Of a DNA stretch of 64,000 bases, positions 11,542-59,330 are shown piece by piece. The stretch covers positions 1,984,001-2,048,000 of the forward strand of contig JBAIAA010000258.1 of the NCBI GenBank assembly GCA_037893245.1, given 5' to 3'. The position numbers and the translations under genes were made by a program. The DNA is from Crossaster papposus (Eukaryota; Echinodermata; Asteroidea; Velatida; Solasteridae). Under the pieces are notes generated by a model. It saw only the letters and a program-made list of their open reading frames with translations. It made no database searches and was not told the origin of the DNA. Numbering within the stretch: the first letter of the stretch is position 1; every line of letters starts with the position of its first letter.

Positions 11542-12911
11542 AATGGGCAGCTCCCAACATTACACAAATCTGAATCTGTACATTTGAAAGTTCCTCATAC
11601 TGTGCTCAAACTCATTGCTTTACAATGTACATTGTTAGGCTGTTCGTCACATGTTATCATAACATTTTTTTTTAATCAATGTTAAAATCCATAGAGAGAC
11701 ATTTCATGCGCAGTTACGGCAAATGAGCTTTTTAGCAACCTTTCTGTAAGCTTCATTTCTCCAGCAATAGATGATTGTATTGAGCAAAGAATTGCTGTAA
11801 CGTAGAAATTCCAACAATGTCCAAAGACATAAATTAATGTCTATAGAAATAACTGCAATTGTAGGTAGCCAAGTCACACAGAAGTGCATGTGATAATCAG
11901 AAATGTTTTGAGAGATTTGACATTTGAGCGATGCAGCTGAACCTGTGCATCTTCAACATTTATCTCAGTTTCTGCTCTACGCTGTGCATGATGTCTCGCA
12001 ATTAACAGCAATTTTACATATGGAATAATGATGCACAAAGTAATATTATTGCAACTGAAATGTACAGTATGGCCAACAAAGTTACTTTTACACATTTTAA
12101 ATATGATATCAATCTAGCAGATTCAACAGCAAGGCAGAGTAGAGCTGTACATGCCAAGCCGATGTAAGCTCGTCTTTTGGTAACTAGAGCTTGTAGCCTC
12201 AGAGGTTGCGACACTGCAATGTATCGGACCACAGTGATCATTACCAGAATGCCAAATCCCAGTCTGTCACAATTCTTATGGTGTATTTAACAAGATCCTC
12301 GAAAAATATATGTATAAGACCAAAAGTTCCCACACCAACATCAGATATCGCCAGAGCTACTAGCAGCAGTTTGGTGACGTCGTGCATGTCACGTATGCGA
12401 TGGAACACCAGCAGAGAAAACAAGTTGCAGATGAGGCAAAACAAACAGATAGGAGCTAGAACACACTTGTACATCAAAATGCATTCATCAGAATCATTTA
12501 ATAAGCTTGAGAACGAGCACATTTCTGTAATGTTTTCCATTGTGTGAGTCGTTATTATAGTTCTTCGTGATGTTCTTTGCACACACCCAGGATTCAGTCC
12601 TGTAATTTCACCGTGATGCATTCAAGACATCAATATCTACTTGGAGTAAAATCCATCTGACCACTCCCAAATCATTATACGGTTTTCCCAGCTGTTCTGT
12701 TTTAATTGCTCTTCCAAACTCTTCTTAAGTTCCGTAATACACCTTTAGATTCACAGTGTTTCAGCGATGACTAGTGACTTCTGTGTCTGCGGCGCAGCAA
12801 GAATTGTGCCTCACAAATGCATCGTAGCAGAATCACGGCAACCAGTTGATCGATGAAAAGCAATCTGCTTCTTAATGAGCAGTGCAAGCAATCACCAAAT
12901 ATTGCCTTATA
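11542..12911. repeat. Duplicated GPCR block, locus A
   Basis: About 1.37 kb matches 25607-26964 at roughly 90%. The match stops at TTGCCTTATA on both sides. In locus A a TIR-bounded element (12915-20165) follows; in locus B a different element follows at the same place. Confidence 0.85.
11704..12621 (-). pseudogene. Class A (rhodopsin-like) GPCR, copy 1, frameshifted
   Basis: Read on the minus strand in three to four frames. The N-terminus holds an NITEM sequon, then TM1 with CNLF, TM2 with LLLVALAISDVGVGTF, a VRYIAV motif at the end of TM3 in place of DRY, TM5-TM6 with TWLPT, and TM7 with NTIIYCWRN in place of NPxxY. Compared with the paralogue at 25773-26624 it has a 13-base deletion near 12276, a one-base loss near 12042 in TM5 and a one-base loss near 11890. 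Three frameshifts make it a pseudogene. The ligand is unknown. Confidence 0.82.
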
Positions 12912-12914
12912 GTT

Positions 12915-13110
12915 AGGTGGCTTAGTGAAATTACCGTGACTCGGCGGATTAAAGTACCAAATTTGGCATGAGGCTCCCCTAGGGCCTATTAATTAAGATT
13001 AGCATAGGAGCCCTCCGGAATGTAAAATACAAAATTTCAAAATGGCCGCCATATATGACAAAATATCACTTTTCTCGAGTACTGGGAGTCATAAGAAGCT
13101 CAGGTAATTG
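12915..13110 (+). repeat. Left inverted repeat of the 7.25-kb element
   Basis: Pairs with 19985-20165. Confidence 0.85.
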
Positions 13111-13221
13111 AACAATATAATAGTACCAAAACATTTTTAAAATATTATAAATACCGTCGTTATTCAACTTCCAATCAAAATCCACCCTCTTTTGGGGCGG
13201 ATCGCAGAATTTTTGAAGGGT

Positions 13222-13366
13222 GGGGGGGGGGGGGGGGTTTCAGGCCCGTCCGATTTTTGTTTCACAAAAACAAAAGTAAATAAACAAAATCGCAGGATGC
13301 TTTCTAGACAGTCACTTATTCAAAACATTCACCACATACAATGTATACAGATAATAACCCCCCCCC

Positions 13367-13397
<31 letters not shown>

Positions 13398-13430
13398 TGG
13401 GGGGGGGGGGGAGGGGGGGGGGGGGGGGGG
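13222..13430. repeat. Two long G-runs and a C9-T10-G block
   Basis: G-run at 13222-13237. C9, T10 and then about 53 nearly pure G at 13358-13430. The apparent poly-Gly frames here are artefacts of this composition. These tracts can form G-quadruplexes and are error-prone in assembly. Confidence 0.9.
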
Positions 13431-13741
13431 TTGACCACCCCCTCCCCGGATCCCTGTCTGCTTTTCTGGTTGGAAGTTAAATTTTATCACCCAATAAAGT
13501 ACATAATCATTCGTGAAGCATGTATCTCAATAACTAGATAAAACTCATTTTTTTTGGAAAATACACAACGCTTTATTTGTAGGCTGCCAAACAGTTCTCA
13601 ATTTTCCTGACTATCTCACCCCATGAAGACTAGACCATTGCAAGGATGGGGTTGAATTGGAATGCAGTGTAAAGAAACTTTCACAATTTTCTCAGTTTTC
13701 TAAGTATGTGTGATTGTTAAGTGATGTCCATTAAACTGAAC

Positions 13742-16700
13742 TTACAGTTTACAATGTTCTATGGAGTACATTTGCACTTGCAAAGTGGTGAGCAGTCGAG
13801 ATTTGCTTTGCCGCATTTGTTCACGGCACAATCTGGAAATCTCTGGAATTGTCATCCAAACTGGTACCCATGACTCTGATACTTTGGTCCAGGCAAAATC
13901 CTTTGGATAAGGAACCACAGGCTGTGTTTGTGTGCATGTCGTCCAGATTCCTGCTTGATACACTACCAGGCGGACATGCTGGAGTAGTGCATCCTTGGTG
14001 GGTGGCAGTTTGTCCATTGCTCAATTCTTATGCCAGAAAAGTTCCCTTCTTGTCTCGTTGACGGAGCTCGAAGGACTGGTTTTGCCATACAGGATAACAG
14101 TCAGTCTCTCGAGCTTCAGGAAAGAGTCGTCGTCGAGATCGTGCATCTGGAAAGGATGGTCGGCCAGATACACAAACGTCTGTGTGACGTCTTTATAGGC
14201 CTGCCAGGCCTGCCAAACTGACTTCTTGCCCTTGCCATTGAAAGCAGATGTTGTGTCACAACCTGAAAATGCGTGGAAAATGGGTAATGCTCGTGATTGT
14301 TGCTGCCCTAGGCTTGAGTAGATGGCGTTGATGTGGTAAAACCTGTAATTCTTGCCCATGCCAAAGGCCACCCAAAGGTTCAGTCGTAATCAGATAATGG
14401 AATGTGCCAGCAAGGATTACTACAACATCTGTGTCAACAGTACGTACATGGATAGTCTTTCCCCCGTGTTTGAGAGCATGCAGCAAATGAACCACAACCC
14501 TGGTGTCCGCATCCTCATGATTGCAGTTTTGCATGGGGATGCTGGTACCAATGGATGCCACAGATTTCCCGGATGTGACATAATAGAGCTTTGGCTGGCG
14601 GCAAATTGAAATCCACAATCTTGGAAGTCAAAAAGGCAAACAGCTCCTTCTTGTTGAGTGGGTCACGGAGAAAGTCCATCCAATTGCCTGGTAGTTTGGT
14701 CTCACCGGACACTTTCCTGCGCACACCCTTGCCTCTCTTTTCCTGGGTAGACTCCTTCAAACTATCTGGGATGTATGTGTCCTACACAACATCCAACCTC
14801 GTGGCATCCTGCAGCTGCTTCTCCAGGTAAGGGATGAATACCCTGTCTGCATACTCATGGAAGGTGCCGACGCCGGTAGTGGGCAGACAGTGTACGATGA
14901 CGGTACCATCCAGGACTTTGCAGTCATAGTTTGAGGGTGGCTCTGATTGACCAGGTTGCTCAAGACACATCAGCAGGTCGGACTTCGTGCTTGGCAAATG
15001 AAGCTTGTCAAAATCTGAGAGGGAAGAAGGGAAGGACTGTATCTCATGTGCAAAGAACTCTGCCAAGTCACCATCCCGGTTCTGCATAGATATGTACAGC
15101 TGGCCAAAGAGTGCCACATTGTTTTGAAGCACTTTGATCTTCTTCCCCTGCTTAGATGTTACCTTGCGTTTAGGTTTACTGAATAGTGCTAGAGAATTCC
15201 TCTTGATTGGGTCATGGATAGAGTGGCTGCGCACATCAAGCACATTCTTGACAAAGTTCTCGTATTGTTTCCTGCCTGTATCCTCCAAAGTGCGCAATGC
15301 GGCTACCACTGATTCATCTGCGCAGTTGCGACTGTCGAGAGTTACTAGATCTGAGAAATCATCCAAGAAGGGATTGCCCATTCGTCTGATGGTATCAGAG
15401 AGGCTGACAACCTGTCGCTGGAAGGTCTTGTGTGTTGAGAGACCCTGCTCATGGTGCTGGAAGTTCTCCGGGATCTCTGTCATCATCAGGAAGGTATTCT
15501 TCTTCAAATTGCTTCAGCAGCCTGGAGATCTCTGGTCCCGAGAACATCCATCTCCGAAAAGCCACAGGGTTTTCTGTGAGCCCAACAGCTCCACCAGAAC
15601 CTTTTACAATCTTGTTTTCCTGCTCATGAGCTTGATCAAATGGGATCGCAAAGAATTTGTTACTGGTCTTGGAAAGGACCCAATGAGAAAACTTCTCAAA
15701 CTCATCCTTGATAGTGTCGGGCAAGGACTTTATATCTCTGATGTGGACAGACATCCACCGTGAGTAGTTCACATGATCCAAGGCAAAGAACAGTGGTGTG
15801 AGTTCCTCCAAGACTTCAACATACAAAGGGAAATTCTTCTCTCTGTGAGCCCTGATGAATATGAGAATGAGGGTTTCGTAGCTCATTATCAGGTCCCAGT
15901 ACATGAAAGTGGGACTTCTCTTCTGCATGTTGTTTCTCCAAGCCATGGCAGACTCTTCATCTTTGGGGCCCTCACTGAGCATGAAAGCCTCCCTCTGGAG
16001 ATTGTGAAGGGTCAAGATAGTGATTTGGTGAGCGTGCCTAGTTCGAGTTAGGTGTGCTGCCTTCAGATACGAATCAGCCGTGCCATATGATGCTACCTCT
16101 GCCTCTGTGAGGGCTGTAGTCCAGCCAGAACTTTCTAAGACATCCCCAAGTGTATTCCACAGTGCCATTTTTGTGTGCAGACCACCTAGCATAACCACAT
16201 GTACTCTCTCGCCATGAGTGTCTGGCCATTTCCACTGTACAAACTTTGCCAGGGCAATCAGAGGCTGGTCAAATGTAGTGACTGGGATTTGTCCTGGGTT
16301 CAGAAATTCGACAGCTTGTCTCTGTACATCCATGCCATGTTTGATCATAGCAGGAGTGGCGGACTTCTCATAGAATAGAGGAAGGAGTGCACATTGTGCT
16401 GGAGGGTCTTCTACCGGAGGTTGATTAGAGGCATGATAGGCAGCCCATGCAATGGTATCTTTACTGGTGAGTTCTTTTGTCTCTAGAAGTAGCAGTGAAT
16501 GCTCTACCCAGCTGTGTTCCCCTGTTCTGGCCTCATCTAAGCACCTCTCGACTGGAAACACATCACTTTCTGGCACCGCAACAGCAGTTGTCTTCAAGGT
16601 TATGGCTGGTACATAGGCGTAGCTGTCAGGAAGAGCGTGCTTTTCATTTCCAGAAGGTGGTATCATAACAGGTGGTCTGCTCTCACCAGGTTTGGTCTTG

Positions 16701-18183
16701 GTAGGCAACTGGAAAAGGCTGATTCCCGTCCCATGGAATGATGTTTTGGAAGTGGTTGAGCTGGGGTTGTGATCTAGGTTGTCCAGGGCACCAACCGTGA
16801 ACAAACCTTTCCGGAGGCTAGCCGGAGACACCACTTCATCTTCTACAAAGCGTTCACAGGTAGAAGTGGCGATCCAGTCCTCAATCTCCATAATCCTGTC
16901 ATAGGAAATGCTGATGCCGAAGTGATATAACTGCTTGATGAGTTTCTTGCTTCTGGTCAGTGCATGCACATTGATGCCAATATAGATGGGGAGGGGTGGC
17001 TCACGCTCCATAGTGTGTCTGGTCTTCACAGCAGTATCAGGTGTTCGTTTCTTTGTATTGTAAACGATGACTTGGTTGATGGTGAGGCAAGCCTGGGATT
17101 CACGCTTGTCTTGATCTTTTAAGTTGGGATCATTCAAGATCATGGAGACAAGAGACTTGATGCTTGAGGGCAGTGAGTCTTCCTGACATTGTTCCGGGAA
17201 GCAACCTGTAAATTTGAAGCCTTGATGGTTAAAGATGTCCTTTCTTACTTTTGTAGCAGCTTTGGTCAGGATAACAGCGTCTTCTGAGAAGTCTCGACTC
17301 TTCAGAGCTTCTTTCAACATATTTCTCATGCCTTCCCTGAAAATGAGAACAGTGTTTCTCCCATCATACTGTTCTTGCGCCTCTGGGAAGCGTTCTAGCA
17401 AACGACCCTTCAGTCTGGTCTTGTAGACTTGTTTCTTGATGCCCAGTTCTTCAAGACGACTCATATACAGATAGTGAACCTCATTCAGCTTGAAGAGGAG
17501 AGTTTCAGAATCCACAGAATCCTCAATGTAGGTGGTCAGTTCCACAAATGCCCGAGACTCATTCATTTTCTCGCAAGGCAGGCCAAACACCTGAAAACAC
17601 ATGTGTTTTCAGGTGTTTGGCCTGCCTTGCGAGTATGGCTACGGTAGCGATTTCTTAGCTTGACCAGACATGTCAGGTGGTACTTTGCATCAATTGCAAT
17701 TAGATCTCCCCCAACTATTCTAGCCATAAGCAGGGTGTCATTTAGCTCTGTGATCATGTCCCGGATATTTTTGTCGGCATCCAAGGTTGAAACTTCATGA
17801 AGAACTTTTTCATCTTCGCCTTTCTCGCAGAATAAACACTTTTGACTGTCTAGTGCTTTGCGCTTACTGGGCCTTTTCTCTTCACCATCAGGGTTATGCT
17901 GTATCTTCTTCTTTGCTTTTGCCAACTTAGAATTGTTAAACTTCAAATGGCAAGATTTGTGCTAGGAAGCAGAATGAGAAACAAAACTGTCAACAGTTTC
18001 ATCACTCCCAAAATAGAGTTCGGCTGGAAGAGCACCAATGGCCCTGAACTGTTCTACGTTGGTCATGAATGATGTGTAGGCACCTGCCTTGTCAATACTT
18101 GTCCCAGGACTCCTCAAGGGACACTTCAAGGGTTCAGCAGTGTCCTGCTGGCAAATCACGCAGCGATCCCAATATAGCTCCAT
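13742..18183 (-). pseudogene. Long uncharacterised metazoan gene with a PIN/FEN-like C-terminus ('GCDTTS' family), decayed
   Basis: A continuous minus-strand protein of about 1,400 residues is readable with interruptions. The N-terminus has a zinc-like RCVICQQDT...CPL segment (18150-18110). A TAG at 17962-17964 lies where HKSCHLKF follows. The main body runs 17602-15449 in one frame, then shifts near 15480, with a TAG at 14782-14784 and frameshifts near 14590 and 14350. The C-terminal part has HEDADTRVVVHLL, VRTVDTDVVVIL and FHAFSGCDTTSAF, in the order of the acidic motifs of XPG/FEN nucleases. The last part has PPTKDALLQHV and SWVPVWMTIPE. I know this as a multi-copy uncharacterised family in invertebrates; the nuclease reading is inference. 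A 64-bp palindrome frameshifts it at 17570-17633. Confidence 0.72.
17570..17633. repeat. 64-bp perfect palindrome inside the gene
   Basis: 32-base arms meet with no spacer at 17601/17602, and every base pairs. It lies between codons for RYRSHTRKAGQTPE and MNESRAF on the minus strand. One arm is an inverted copy of adjacent coding sequence. Leaving out 32 bases puts the two flanking frames in register, so the duplication is itself the frameshift. Confidence 0.95.
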
Positions 18184-19984
18184 GTTTAGTCACAACCTAA
18201 AAAGATACCAGTGTATTAGAATAATATGTAAGGTGTCCGAGGGCACTACAATATTTAGTTGGACTCGGGTTCAGAGAATTCATGCTAGTGGCTCATTAAT
18301 TCATGTCTCCTGGGTTAATTTATTTACTGAGCAGCACGAGGGAACTACCTGAGCAAATCTGATAGGGGTTTGTGCAGGAATCGAATAAAAAAATTATTAA
18401 GCATACATACGTGTATCTAAATGTAGTAACAAATTAAAATTTAATATCAGAAAATGTAGACTGATTCGGGAAATTAAATCATCACTAAAAAAGAAAATTT
18501 AAGTAAGAATTACTGTATGTTTCCGTGTGTGTCAAGGTAACACTTGACAAGGTAAGCCTAACATTCTCCATAAAAATGCTCTGCTTCATCAATACTCTTC
18601 AATACTTTGAATATCTCTGACAATTGTTATTTAATTATAAAAATGAATCTCCTTTTAACCCTATTAACAATGTCAAATCAAGGAGTCCCCTGGCAACATA
18701 TAAGGCAAAAAGGCATAAACTCACAAGCGTTCACAAGCAGGCCGGCTAAATTTACATATTTACATTCTTACTAAAATACCCCCATGCTGCCAGCAACAAC
18801 TAAAGACATAAGAAATCCCCTATTAAAATATAATGGAAAAAAAAGGTACTCTAAATTCAAAACACTGCAGTCCCAAAGTGGGCACATATGCACTGCCATT
18901 AATTATTATTCAATGTATATCCAACATAAATACCTATGCACACACAGCACATCATCCAAACTTTCTTGACTTTTCTTACTCTAAAATAAATTTTTAAGGA
19001 GGGTACTAATTACCACAAAGTTGTCATACAGTCTGTAACTATCAAAGAATGTCATAAGTAAAGGATGATTCATTATCACTCTATTTGAATAATGATGTTT
19101 ATAGATAGAAATCTGATGAAAATTAGTTATTTCTCACCTGATGAAATGTGCAGGATTGGTGACCTTTCTTCTTTCTTTATTATTTCTACCACATATCATA
19201 AAGGTTACAAGAGAATGCAATTCATCAATAAATAATCAGGTGTAAATTTGTGAGCTAATCATGTACATTCTTTTAAATAGTATAGATACATGCGGGAGGA
19301 GATCCCCAAGAAGCAAAGCTTGTCGAGTAGGAATCCCCTATGACACAAGTTTAGTGAAAAAGAAAGAATACATACATAAGACGAAACCAAGTTTAAGATA
19401 ATGCTCAAGATCAATACAAATAACATAGATAACAGAGTAGGTGTGATACAGAGTACATGTGTATGTGTGGCAACCCATTAAGGATTTCTCGTCTAAGAAA
19501 TTCAATCAGAATTCAAGTAAATGGACAAAAGATTAGATTTAAATTTATATTTAAATAATGAGAGGCTACGAATACCTTTCAGTGAGTTATGCAAGGAATT
19601 TAGCAGGTCACAAATGAATGGACAACAACAAAGAGCGCCACCGCTCATCAATCTGTGCTTAGTGTCTGCATCAAAATACCTCTTACATATTACATTTCTT
19701 AGAGACAGGAAATATCTCAACTCAAACAGCAAAAACAGGCAAATTATCAAAGCAGTAAAGTAAGAATAATTAAAAATATGAAATTTGTCAATATTTTATA
19801 AAACGACACTTCTCAAGAAACTAATGGCTCCTCACATTAAGAACCCATTGTAGGTTTATGGTTTAATAATTACATTGATGAAACTGCTTGCACATGTAGG
19901 TCCACTCGTAGTGTTGCAATGTATTCAAAATTGAATTCAGTTTGTTCAGTGGCCTCTAAAACCAATATTTTGTAACCATTCTTA
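18184..19984. other. Gene-free interior of the 7.25-kb element
   Basis: AT-rich, with no coding signature. It lies upstream of the minus-strand gene and may hold its promoter, but no clear TATA or initiator could be assigned. Short frames at 18784 and 19502-19763 are unsupported. Confidence 0.5.
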
Positions 19985-20165
19985 ACTTCTCATGATTCCC
20001 AGGACTCATTAAAGTGATATTTTGTCCAAAATGTCGGCCATCTTGAAATTCCGGGGGGGCTCCTAGGCTAATCTTAATTAATAGGCTCTAAGGGAGCCTC
20101 ATGCCAAATTTGGTGCTTTTATCCGCCGAAGCACGGTAACCTTAAAATTTAACACTAAGCCACCT
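19985..20165 (-). repeat. Right inverted repeat of the 7.25-kb element
   Basis: Pairs with 12915-13110. Confidence 0.85.
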
Positions 20166-20172
20166 GATTAAT

Positions 20173-20965
20173 ACATGTACATTGTATAGTCTAGATGCAA
20201 ACGAGCAAGCATTTTGTTGACATAAATTGTGCAACTATTGAAAACCCCATTATTTTTTTGGATCGACGCAGGATATGGCATGGTGACCATGGAACCAAAA
20301 GTGGTCGGTCTAATTTCATCATTCAATTCGGGCGATTCACAATGCAGTGCGCCACCAAGCGTTTGACTCAAAAGAGCCACTTTTAAACTTTACGGTCGAC
20401 TTCTTCCGTATATCATACTGTAGTGAAATATCTATTCTTCATTGTTCACGCGAGGTACAACACAAACATAAATGTATCTGGAAGCGTCGTTGATTAAAAC
20501 ATTGTTATTTGCAGAACAAAATTTGAGCTTTAATCGTGCGCGTCCAAAAAGACGTAAAAACTGATGAGTTCATGCAAAATGAATACCGTTTTTCAAACTG
20601 ATGCCGACTTTTTCCCAAGATGCACTGCGGGTATAGCAGGATTTGCGCCTCCAACGGCAGCTTCTAGGTATTGTGAATCGCTCGAATTACATGTATTGCT
20701 GAAGATCTTTGGGAATTGTAAGGGTTGTTGGAGTCCTTCTTTCACTGACGGAAAAATTTGATGCATTGCACATGTAGTGCAGGAAAGATGGCATTTTCCT
20801 AATTCAAAATGGTTAAATATAACAAGTAATTGGGGGAAATGTTTTGCTTTGCTTTGTTTTGGGTGTTGGATTTGATTACCCTATTCCCCATAGACTTGTG
20901 TGCAATTTATCGGCCATGTGGGGTTTTTTTTTCAGAAAGAAAGATTCTCGAATCTTGTTGTGTAC
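20173..20965. repeat. Locus A downstream half of a duplicated block
   Basis: 20173-20315 matches 27961-28095 and 20700-20965 matches about 28484-28712. Between them locus A has about 385 bp of its own, while locus B has a MITE (28101-28457). With the GPCR parts, this shows a duplication of about 2 kb or more that was later invaded differently at each site. No gene is recognised at 20385-20700. Confidence 0.75.
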
Positions 20966-21186: not shown

Positions 21187-21757
21187 AGCCCATGCATCGC
21201 ATCTAGGGATCCAGAGTACTATCAACAAGACCCGTGAGATAATTTTATGGCCAAACATGAGCGAAGAACTGACTGAAGCCATTCAGACGTGCCCTACCTG
21301 TCAGGAGGCCCAACCAGCAAATTGCAAAGAGCCTATGATGACGCATCCCTTACCCACAGTGCCATGGCAAGCTGTTGCTACTGGTTGTTTTTAGCTAAAC
21401 GGTCACTGTGTCTTTGTCGACATGTACTCTGACTTCATAGAATTTGTGGAACTGGAAGGCATGACCACAGAGACGCTAGTGAAGAAAACCAAACCAATCT
21501 TTGCCACACATGGCATACCAGCCACACTGATAAGTGACAAAGGGCCAGGCTTCGCCACGCGTAAACTTAGCCAGTTTGCTCACGAATGGGACTTTCGCCA
21601 CATGACCACAAGCCCCCACCATAGCAGAGCCAATGGCAAAGCTGAATCCGCCGCCAAGATCACAAAATGTCTCATCAAAAGCTCCAAACAAGATGGTGGA
21701 GATATGTGGGAGATGCTTTTGTCTGATCACACGTTAAACACATGCCACCAACTTTGA
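21187..21757 (+). pseudogene. Ty3/gypsy integrase fragment
   Basis: An H-x2-H and C-x2-C zinc-binding segment (HASHLG ... CPTCQ) is followed by KEPMMTHPLPTVPWQ and the integrase core VDMYSDFIEFVEL. The expected first catalytic Asp region is damaged (ATGCF then TAG at about 21392-21394). LISDKGPGF follows with the second Asp, then SPHHSRANGKAESA. The final Glu lies in the NGKAE segment. The frame ends at 21755-21757, and unrelated repeat DNA follows. By family, integrase inserts cDNA into the host genome; this fragment cannot do so. It is the closest relative of 2729-3152. Confidence 0.85.
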
Positions 21758-57207: not shown

Positions 57208-59330
57208 ATACTTCAAGACATTTCTTGATGCCGTAAAACTGTTGGAGAGTAACAACTTGCAACCAGTTGTGGTTTTTGATGGCGAACTACTACCTGCTAA
57301 GCTCATCTGAATTAACAACGTGCTAGGTAAGATATGCACTGATGCTTCGAAAACAAAATCAACTTGCACAGTTATTTTCAGTCACATTTCAAAAACGTTT
57401 TTGTTAATGTAATTCAAAGTCCCATCGTGTTTTCCTCGTGTCCTGGAAAAAGTTTGCTATTTTTAATCACATAGTTGTACCACAAATTATTACAGTGCTT
57501 GGCCCTAACATTCTTTATCATTTAAATGTGTAATTGTTACAGTATAGTAAAACATGTAACGACAGATAACATGTATAAAGATGATAATATTTTGAATACA
57601 AAAAGGAACTGTAATGTACTGCAATTAGCTTTTAATTGTAAATCATCAATATATCATACATCCAAGTTTGTATTTTTTCTAGTGTTAGACGAGATGCCCG
57701 TGTGCAGGCACTGTCTTTACTGAGGGAAGGAAAAGATGTTCATGCAAGGGGACGGGCTGCGGCTGCTGTACATGTCACCCCAGAAATGGTTGACAAAGTG
57801 AGAGTGGTGAGTTTTTTCATTTGTTGGAGGAAGGGGGATAAGAATAAGAATTAGTTAAGAATTATGTGTAGTCTCCCTGTCAATACATAAGTTTTCATCA
57901 TAAAGTCACTATAATACACAGTTTAAGAAAAGTAATGTCAGTGAAGTTCTTTGTTCAGTTTGATTATTGTCAAATGGAATGTACATTTGTAACCGTCTAC
58001 TGTTTTCCAAAAGCAATACTGTTATGGTATAACCATAATGCCTCATGTCACATGCTGTGAATGTTCAGGGACATAATGACATCTACCTTTCAAATTAACA
58101 AAATGCATAATAACTGCAGACTGTATGACACGCTGCTAATTTTTGTTTTCTAAATTGGTTTTATTTTCCATCCAAAATAACCTGCACTTGTTACATTTTT
58201 CTACAGTCTTTGAATAATAGCCAGATTCCTTGGCAACAAGCACCTTATGAGGCCGATGCCCAATTAGCCTACTTGCCTGTCAATGGACAGATTCAGTATA
58301 TCATATCCGAGGATTCAGATTCACTCGTATACGGAGCGTTACAAGTAAGTGTCGGGAACATTTTTAATTATTAAAATACCTGCTAGTCATAAACCGTAAA
58401 AATAATAAGGTAGAAAAGAGGGTTTCATACTCGAAATTAAAGAGTTCACTTAAATTTCTAAAATGTTATTGCCAGCCACATTGTTAATAATAATGAAGTT
58501 GGATTTTTGATGTTATAGTTTGTCAAGGGATTCCACCTGAAATACAACAATTCCTTTTGAAAGGTTGACATGGTATCTCACAAACACAAATTCTGATGTT
58601 AAAACATCGGAGCTTGGCATTCATAATTTTGTGTCTTATTTATTAAGAGGTATGTATTTTTAACTGAAAGTTTAATTCAATGATGCCCTACACAGGTCAT
58701 TTACAAGTACAACTGCATTAATGGAAGAATGGAAGACAGTATACAGAGAGCATTTCTTGGTTACACACACACACAAAGTTTCAAGAAATGTGCATCTTAA
58801 GTGGTTGTGACTACCTTCAGTCACTGGCAGGCGTTGGGCTAGCAAGAGCTGAAAAATTGGGTCAACAGTGTTTCAGCTGCAGATATCACTCAGGTAATAA
58901 TTAATAAATTTTACTTAACTTCACACATTGTCCAAAAGAGGTACCACAGATAAACAAAGAAAAAGCTAACATACAATTGAAGCAAATTAATAATGTCACC
59001 CTAGCCTGTCGGGTTCCTTTTCAGAGACCACATGATTTGTTTAGAATACATTCACTCCACCTTTTGTAAAAAATAAAGGGTTGCTACCATCTAGGACAGT
59101 TATCTGGCAGACATCTTGAAAGGACCTTCTCCAGAGTTTCTTGAAATAAAGGCAAGACCCTGTTCTTCAATATTAATTTCTTCCTTAACATACATATTTT
59201 ATTTTGAAAACACACGAACTGCCAAATATTGGAAGAGTACCTGGCAGAGCATTGATTGTGGAGCAAAAAAGGTGGATTTTACAATCTGGAAATTAAAAAT
59301 GCAAAACAAATCAGCAACTTGAATAACACG
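57208..59330 (+). pseudogene. EXO1/XPG-like 5' nuclease exons, damaged
   Basis: Four or five exons with GT-AG borders: 57208 to about 57310, 57683-57806, 58207-58344, 58696-58893, and one starting at 59100. They encode in order YFKTFLDAVKLLESNN-QPVVVFDGELLPAK; RRDARVQALSLLREGKDV; PWQQAPYEADAQLAYL with IISEDSDSLVYGA; and [20 protein letters not shown]. These are the XPG internal-domain signatures (FDG, APYEADAQLAYL, EDSD, GCDY). The order and wording are closest to EXO1. A TGA follows LPAKLI, a shift occurs at the CACACA tract near 58765, and another near 58858. The N-terminal XPG region (MGIQGLL-type) was not found. Either a decayed retained gene or a lineage-specific duplicate. Confidence 0.72.

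Follow-up and report, generated by a model that had tools for sequence, protein, structure and literature searches.

The stretch of Crossaster papposus DNA analyzed here (the window; 64,000 nucleotides of contig JBAIAA010000258.1) contains a 7,261-bp unit at 12910–20170, which is bounded by terminal inverted repeats (TIRs) and carries on the minus strand a decayed gene of the GCDTTS family, named after a motif present in its protein. In all likelihood, this unit is what decay has left of an autonomous DNA transposon of the cut-and-paste kind, and its most probable lineage is AcademX, within the Academ superfamily. The initial annotation of the window had proposed something else, namely a new transposon class in which a FEN-like nuclease stands in place of a DDE transposase. 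That proposal is not supported, since the middle of the same protein weakly matches DUF6589 with invariant acidic residues, and since a nuclease lineage with 3–4 bp duplications, AcademX, has already been described (PMC10045372). Most probably, the GCDTTS family belongs to this already described group and is not a new transposon class.

Ends, target duplications and copies of the element

The ends of the window copy were placed at 12910 and 20170 because other copies and their target duplications set them there; they are five bases outside the earlier boundaries of 12915–20165. The copy shares TAGTYAGG termini with the other copies. Alignment of the ends gave the termini TAGTCAGG, and the window copy reads TAGTTAGG and TAATCAGG. 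The TIRs, expected to be about 180 bp long, measured ~185 bp and bracket a decayed gene of ~1,450 codons. They were delimited by the repeat finder, a gapped comparison and the end alignment with other copies, and lie at 12910–13098 on the 3′ side of the gene (plus strand) and at 19986–20170 on its 5′ side (minus strand). The repeat finder paired two ungapped blocks, 12931–13016 with 20054–20139 (86 nt, 91%) and 13033–13072 with 20011–20050 (40 nt, 88%), and the gapped comparison of the arms gave 77% over 194 columns. Decay of the gene was evident from shifts of the reading frame and stops within it, and from a perfect palindrome of 64 bp (a 32-bp inverted duplication found by the repeat finder), which lies in the coding region at a frame change (17570–17633).

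We then searched the host genome (1.02 Gb in 1,841 contigs). The gene query yielded 1,009 candidates, of which 150 places were scored; the GCDTTS gene is thus multi-copy, as the initial annotation had stated, with at least 150 places, a number that is a lower bound. The TIR query gave 42 matches, several of which form facing pairs ~4–14 kb apart. The five scored gene places closest to the window were C258 (the window itself), C545, C599, C518 and C531. A window-type TIR was found at both ends of C258, C545, C599 and C531 and at the one end seen of C518. C545, whose flanks are the same as those of the window, is the other haplotig of this locus, and the palindrome recurs there as a 64-bp self-complementary stretch. 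The window copy and the C599 copy were 94.7% identical over 6,356 aligned columns. The genome also contains copies that have the window TIR but lack the gene, so that the repeats are able to move on their own. Of the 150 gene places, most have no end read, and the two ends were both read in only a small part. No relative turned up in two scans of viral contigs. Some gene copies were arranged as if duplicated in rows, ~62 kb apart on C443 (1294036, 1356069 and 1418126) and at a spacing of ~5.1–6.3 kb in C429:1325842–1347594.

Target duplications and empty sites, both proposed as tests at the outset, were found. For 13 elements, the two ends lie in a single locus; 12 of these carried an exact 3-bp repeat directly outside TAGT...ACTA, and moving the boundary by 1–6 bases left an exact repeat in only 0–1 of the 13. 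The single exception was the window copy itself, where TTA (12907–12909) and ATA (20171–20173) occupy the expected duplication positions on the left and right flanks. Two further end pairs were each read across two loci, C531 (L042/L043, 14 kb) and C507 (L044/L045, 10.8 kb), and showed no matching repeat; overall, exact 3-bp duplications flanked 12 of the 15 elements whose two ends were read. The repeats observed were ATA, TAT, AAT, AGT, CTA, CCA, GTA and CAT. They vary between elements and therefore represent a duplication, not a fixed target word.

For the empty-site analysis, the flanks of 12 insertions were joined with one copy of the 3-bp repeat and searched against the genome, with 40 places scored per search. 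The L054 join occurred uninterrupted at 34 places (100% over 161 bp); for the L059 join there were 6 such places (100%), and for the L047 join at least 40 (96%). None of the nine further joins appeared among the places scored. Each of these three insertions lies in another repeat, of which the remaining copies preserve the pre-insertion site. The duplications, the empty sites and the TIRs around the gene therefore indicate that this is a genuine DNA transposon family.

The initial annotation had asked whether the same repeats flank the other gene copies; the closest copies carry them, whereas more distant ones have diverged TIRs of their own. TIRs of ~290 bp surround the gene in the C895, C124, C146 and C693 copies, and TIR pairs of 152 and 164 columns were found around the gene in the C825 and C193 copies, respectively. 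All subfamily TIRs begin with TAGT, so that the ends vary with the protein subfamily and TAGT is retained. Among 30 gene loci with 1.5-kb flanks, the terminal motif was present downstream of the gene in 19, or in 18 without L012, whose match was a chance one at another place, its true end being outside the fetched flank; the control rate in shuffled flanks was 0.007. In seven more loci (L023, L024, L027, L028, L029, L030 and L032), the likeness of related copies breaks off at ...ACTA, the reverse complement of TAGT. The last five (L012, L021, L026, L031 and L033) were either truncated or altered, or lay out of range.

Coding state and domains of the GCDTTS protein

The window gene, estimated at first to encode about 1,400 residues, corresponds to a minus-strand protein of ~1,450 aa in eight pieces. 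Relatives are open from stop to stop over 1,464 codons (L058) and 1,546 codons (L059). Differences at codon positions 1, 2 and 3 were 0.31, 0.23 and 0.63 between L058 and L054, and the same order was seen in 28 of 28 pairs compared, indicating that the protein is under constraint. The zinc-like N-terminus noticed earlier was confirmed as Cys/His pairs: the translated N-terminal part (17566–18189, minus strand) is zinc-finger-like and is split into two pieces by a stop, with 36.5% to residues 48–236 of L058. Academ proteins carry a Cys-rich zinc finger. The main open piece follows at 15452–17608 (minus strand; 719 aa), with 56% to residues 235–929 of L058, and its end part corresponds to the DUF6589-like core. 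By alignment to L054 and L058, this core spans approximately 15500–15890 (minus strand) with conserved LDHxNYxRW ... DQAHEQ.

A Pfam scan of the eight window pieces gave no convincing family match. When 17 relatives were scanned, DUF6589 matched the middle of the protein in eight at E ≤ 0.01 (best 7.6e-6, a weak match) and in nine at E ≤ 1, and no other Pfam family reached E ≤ 0.01. Six acidic residues were invariant in five aligned copies, D710, D733, D832, D846, D877 and E881 in L058 numbering.

The C-terminal part begins with a linker and the start of a FEN/XPG-like region (14785–15513, minus strand), recognized by motif only (DGTVIVH ... RLDVV). The acidic motifs HEDAD, VDTDVV and GCDTTSAFNGKGKK follow in two frames at 14024–14627 (minus strand), where the fold is putative. 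A C-terminal remnant past an in-frame stop was placed by translation and by the relatives' alignment at 13745–14020 (minus strand); the relatives end here in a Cys-rich motif, which is seen in the copies that reach the end. The order of the C-terminal motifs, ExAD – DxD – G[CS]D – GxGxK, is known from FEN/XPG nucleases. Of 16 C-terminal parts, 12 contained this acidic pattern, compared with none of 32,000 shuffles; the figure is descriptive, as the pattern was composed after the family had been seen. E154, D157, D181, D183 and D244 (L058-fragment numbering) were invariant. The GCDTTS motif and the FEN-like acidic motifs noticed initially are present, whereas a FEN fold or similarity was not found in the Pfam and PDB searches. 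The best PDB match, the GTPase HflX (E 0.007), and small Pfam matches such as tRNA_edit (E 0.014) were taken as chance. Literature searches for GCDTTS and for DUF6589 found no paper.

Helicase-linked relatives and competing explanations

A genome search with DUF6589 gave 112 matches, which merged into 100 loci. At one of these, L060, DUF6589 scored 107 bits and adjoined a helicase piece (Helicase_C, E 2.5e-10; RecQ-like by eye), which itself had 111 matches genome-wide. A helicase match lay within 10 kb at 65 of the 100 DUF6589 loci, all 65 convergent, compared with a chance expectation of ~0.2% per locus. In contrast, none of the 150 scored GCDTTS places had a helicase-piece match within 10 kb. 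These counts therefore point to one transposase type with two kinds of partner: judged by sequence, some elements combine it with a helicase, and others, in which it is more distant, with a nuclease-like domain. The loci with DUF6589 and a convergent helicase are probably AcademH-type relatives in the same genome. Three left flanks of such helicase-linked elements were compared; two were identical over 2,451 bases and the third was 99.5–100% identical in the overlap, so that no boundary was visible. As described in PMC10045372, AcademH elements make duplications of 9–10 bp and AcademX elements of 3–4 bp, and the duplication length is related to the encoded helicase or nuclease, respectively. 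In a second source, Academ elements are treated as DDE/D transposons that expanded in bivalves, with a mean length of 5,565 bp in a curated bivalve library (PMC10294476). We place the GCDTTS family in Academ because its transposase-like and nuclease-like parts together with 3-bp duplications match the description of AcademX; by these described features, the membership is probable, not proven.

Several results weigh against this placement. The DUF6589 scores shown for this protein, 22.7 bits (L054, E 4.7e-5) and 14.5 bits, were below the Pfam cut-off of 27 bits. Nine of the 17 members had no DUF6589 match at E ≤ 0.01, some of them being partial. Five DUF6589 copies gave a weak result when compared by profile (P 0.007, probability 5%). 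Four of the 16 copies lack the FEN pattern in the form used. FEN/XPG matches were absent from the Pfam scans of the window pieces and of 5, 16 and 17 relatives, as well as from PDB sequence and profile searches; among the 21 places listed in a genome search with PF00867 (XPG_I), none was within 10 kb of the 150 scored GCDTTS places. A structure prediction for a 403-aa window piece, run on the single sequence with no alignment, was unusable (predicted local distance difference test, pLDDT, 33). The comparison with AcademX was made by description; in it, the nuclease of AcademX is taken to be of XPG type, and DUF6589 is presumably the Academ core.

The explanation proposed initially, in which the cutting and movement of the element are the work of a FEN/XPG-like nuclease without any DDE transposase, would make the family a new class. 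In its favor are the FEN acidic pattern, seen in 12 of the 16 members with five invariant residues, and the fact that no Pfam match of the GCDTTS protein exceeded the curated cut-off in the scans examined. However, the DUF6589-like core with invariant D832, D846, D877 and E881 is found in the same protein, DUF6589 is paired elsewhere in the same genome with a helicase in elements that lack the nuclease, and the duplications are short and of fixed length, as is typical of DDE enzymes. We consider this explanation very unlikely. Somewhat less so, but still unlikely, is a separate DDE superfamily outside Academ, in which a distant DUF6589-like transposase was joined independently to a FEN-like nuclease. 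Such an origin would fit the weak DUF6589 similarity and profile comparison; it is countered by the occurrence of a single transposase in a helicase and a nuclease lineage, the latter with 3-bp duplications, which corresponds to Academ as described in PMC10045372.

It is hardly conceivable, on the other hand, that a host gene family or a passenger gene was caught between unrelated inverted repeats or the ends of miniature inverted-repeat transposable elements (MITEs). The gene-less copies with the same TIRs could be read in this way, and the initial annotation had named repeats occurring mainly alone, or gene copies lacking them, as observations that would refute its proposal. Yet the five closest gene places have the window TIR at both ends (four) or at the one end seen (one), the gene is bracketed by distinct TIRs in four copies from a different subfamily and in two that are more distant, and the TIRs diverge along with the protein while keeping their TAGT ends.

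On the preferred reading, an AcademX-type transposon, one protein of ~1,450–1,550 aa would combine a Cys/His N-terminus, a DUF6589-like core, a FEN/XPG-like nuclease and a Cys-rich tail. The Cys/His parts presumably bind DNA, and the core is presumably an RNase H-fold DDE/D transposase. The protein would bind the long TIRs starting with TAGT and excise the element; the core would cut at TAGT and join the target with a 3-bp stagger, yielding 3-bp duplications at varied targets. The nuclease may trim flaps or ends during excision or repair. It is rather unlikely, though worth stating, that the FEN/XPG-like domain itself takes part in the cutting, for example by determining the 3-bp stagger through cleavage of the second strand or of a flap. 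One transposase core would then use two chemistries according to its partner, a helicase with long duplications or a flap nuclease with 3-bp duplications.

Cargo, neighboring features and relation to known systems

Seven loci with GCDTTS-family TIRs carry a reverse transcriptase gene (C833, C512, C302, C346, C749, C567 and C507), which we take to be Penelope-like. The gene stands behind ~490–590 bp of the element's left end and matched Pfam RVT_1 (E 3.7e-7 for L046). In five complete cases of 3.9–4.1 kb (L046–L050, on C833, C512, C302, C346 and C749), the reverse transcriptase is in the transposase's place and is followed by a right end of ~210 bp. Exact 3-bp duplications flank these units, indicating that a retroelement gene was moved as DNA-transposon cargo. 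Only one end was seen at the C567 locus (L051), and the C507 locus (L044/L045) had no matching duplication. Related reverse transcriptase frames are abundant elsewhere in the genome, up to ~680 codons long and 83–89% identical, some in rows ~6.6 kb apart. The C124 GCDTTS element (L055:3806–7820), which has the duplication ATA, seems to have a reverse transcriptase gene as its insertion site, as parts of such a gene are present on both sides (L055:3332–8771).

The C545 haplotig contains a 1,867-bp insertion (L039:5656–7522) with 288-bp inverted repeats that are 99.7% alike and a GTAT flank repeat. It is missing from the window copy and is a recent polymorphic insertion of another DNA transposon. 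Elsewhere in the window, open frames resembling, by eye, a retroelement integrase piece (21422–21757, plus strand) and a receptor-like transmembrane piece (12241–12621, minus strand) were seen. Exons of a cellular EXO1-like gene, which encodes a nuclease of the FEN family, lie at 58129–58374 and 58722–58904 (plus strand) and matched PDB exonuclease 1 at 3.5e-7 and 6.5e-7.

With these results, the GCDTTS proteins, present in many copies in this genome, can be assigned to a DNA transposon that has defined ends and makes 3-bp duplications. With the long open copies of 1,464 and 1,546 codons and the helicase-linked counterpart, the relation between accessory enzyme and duplication length suggested for Academ becomes testable in one host.

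Compared with FEN, XPG and EXO1 nucleases, the C-terminus of the GCDTTS protein has the same order of acidic motifs, ExAD, DxD and G[CS]D, and a G-rich K motif, but differs in having no significant similarity to them in Pfam and PDB sequence searches. AcademH is probably represented in this genome by its counterpart, the DUF6589-type transposase with a helicase. Unlike AcademH, however, the GCDTTS family has a nuclease-like C-terminus and no match to that helicase within 10 kb at the 150 scored places, and its duplications are of 3 bp, not 9–10 bp. AcademX, as described in PMC10045372, is a DNA transposon with a nuclease and 3–4 bp duplications, and the GCDTTS family similarly has 3-bp duplications, a nuclease-like C-terminus and TIRs at both ends.

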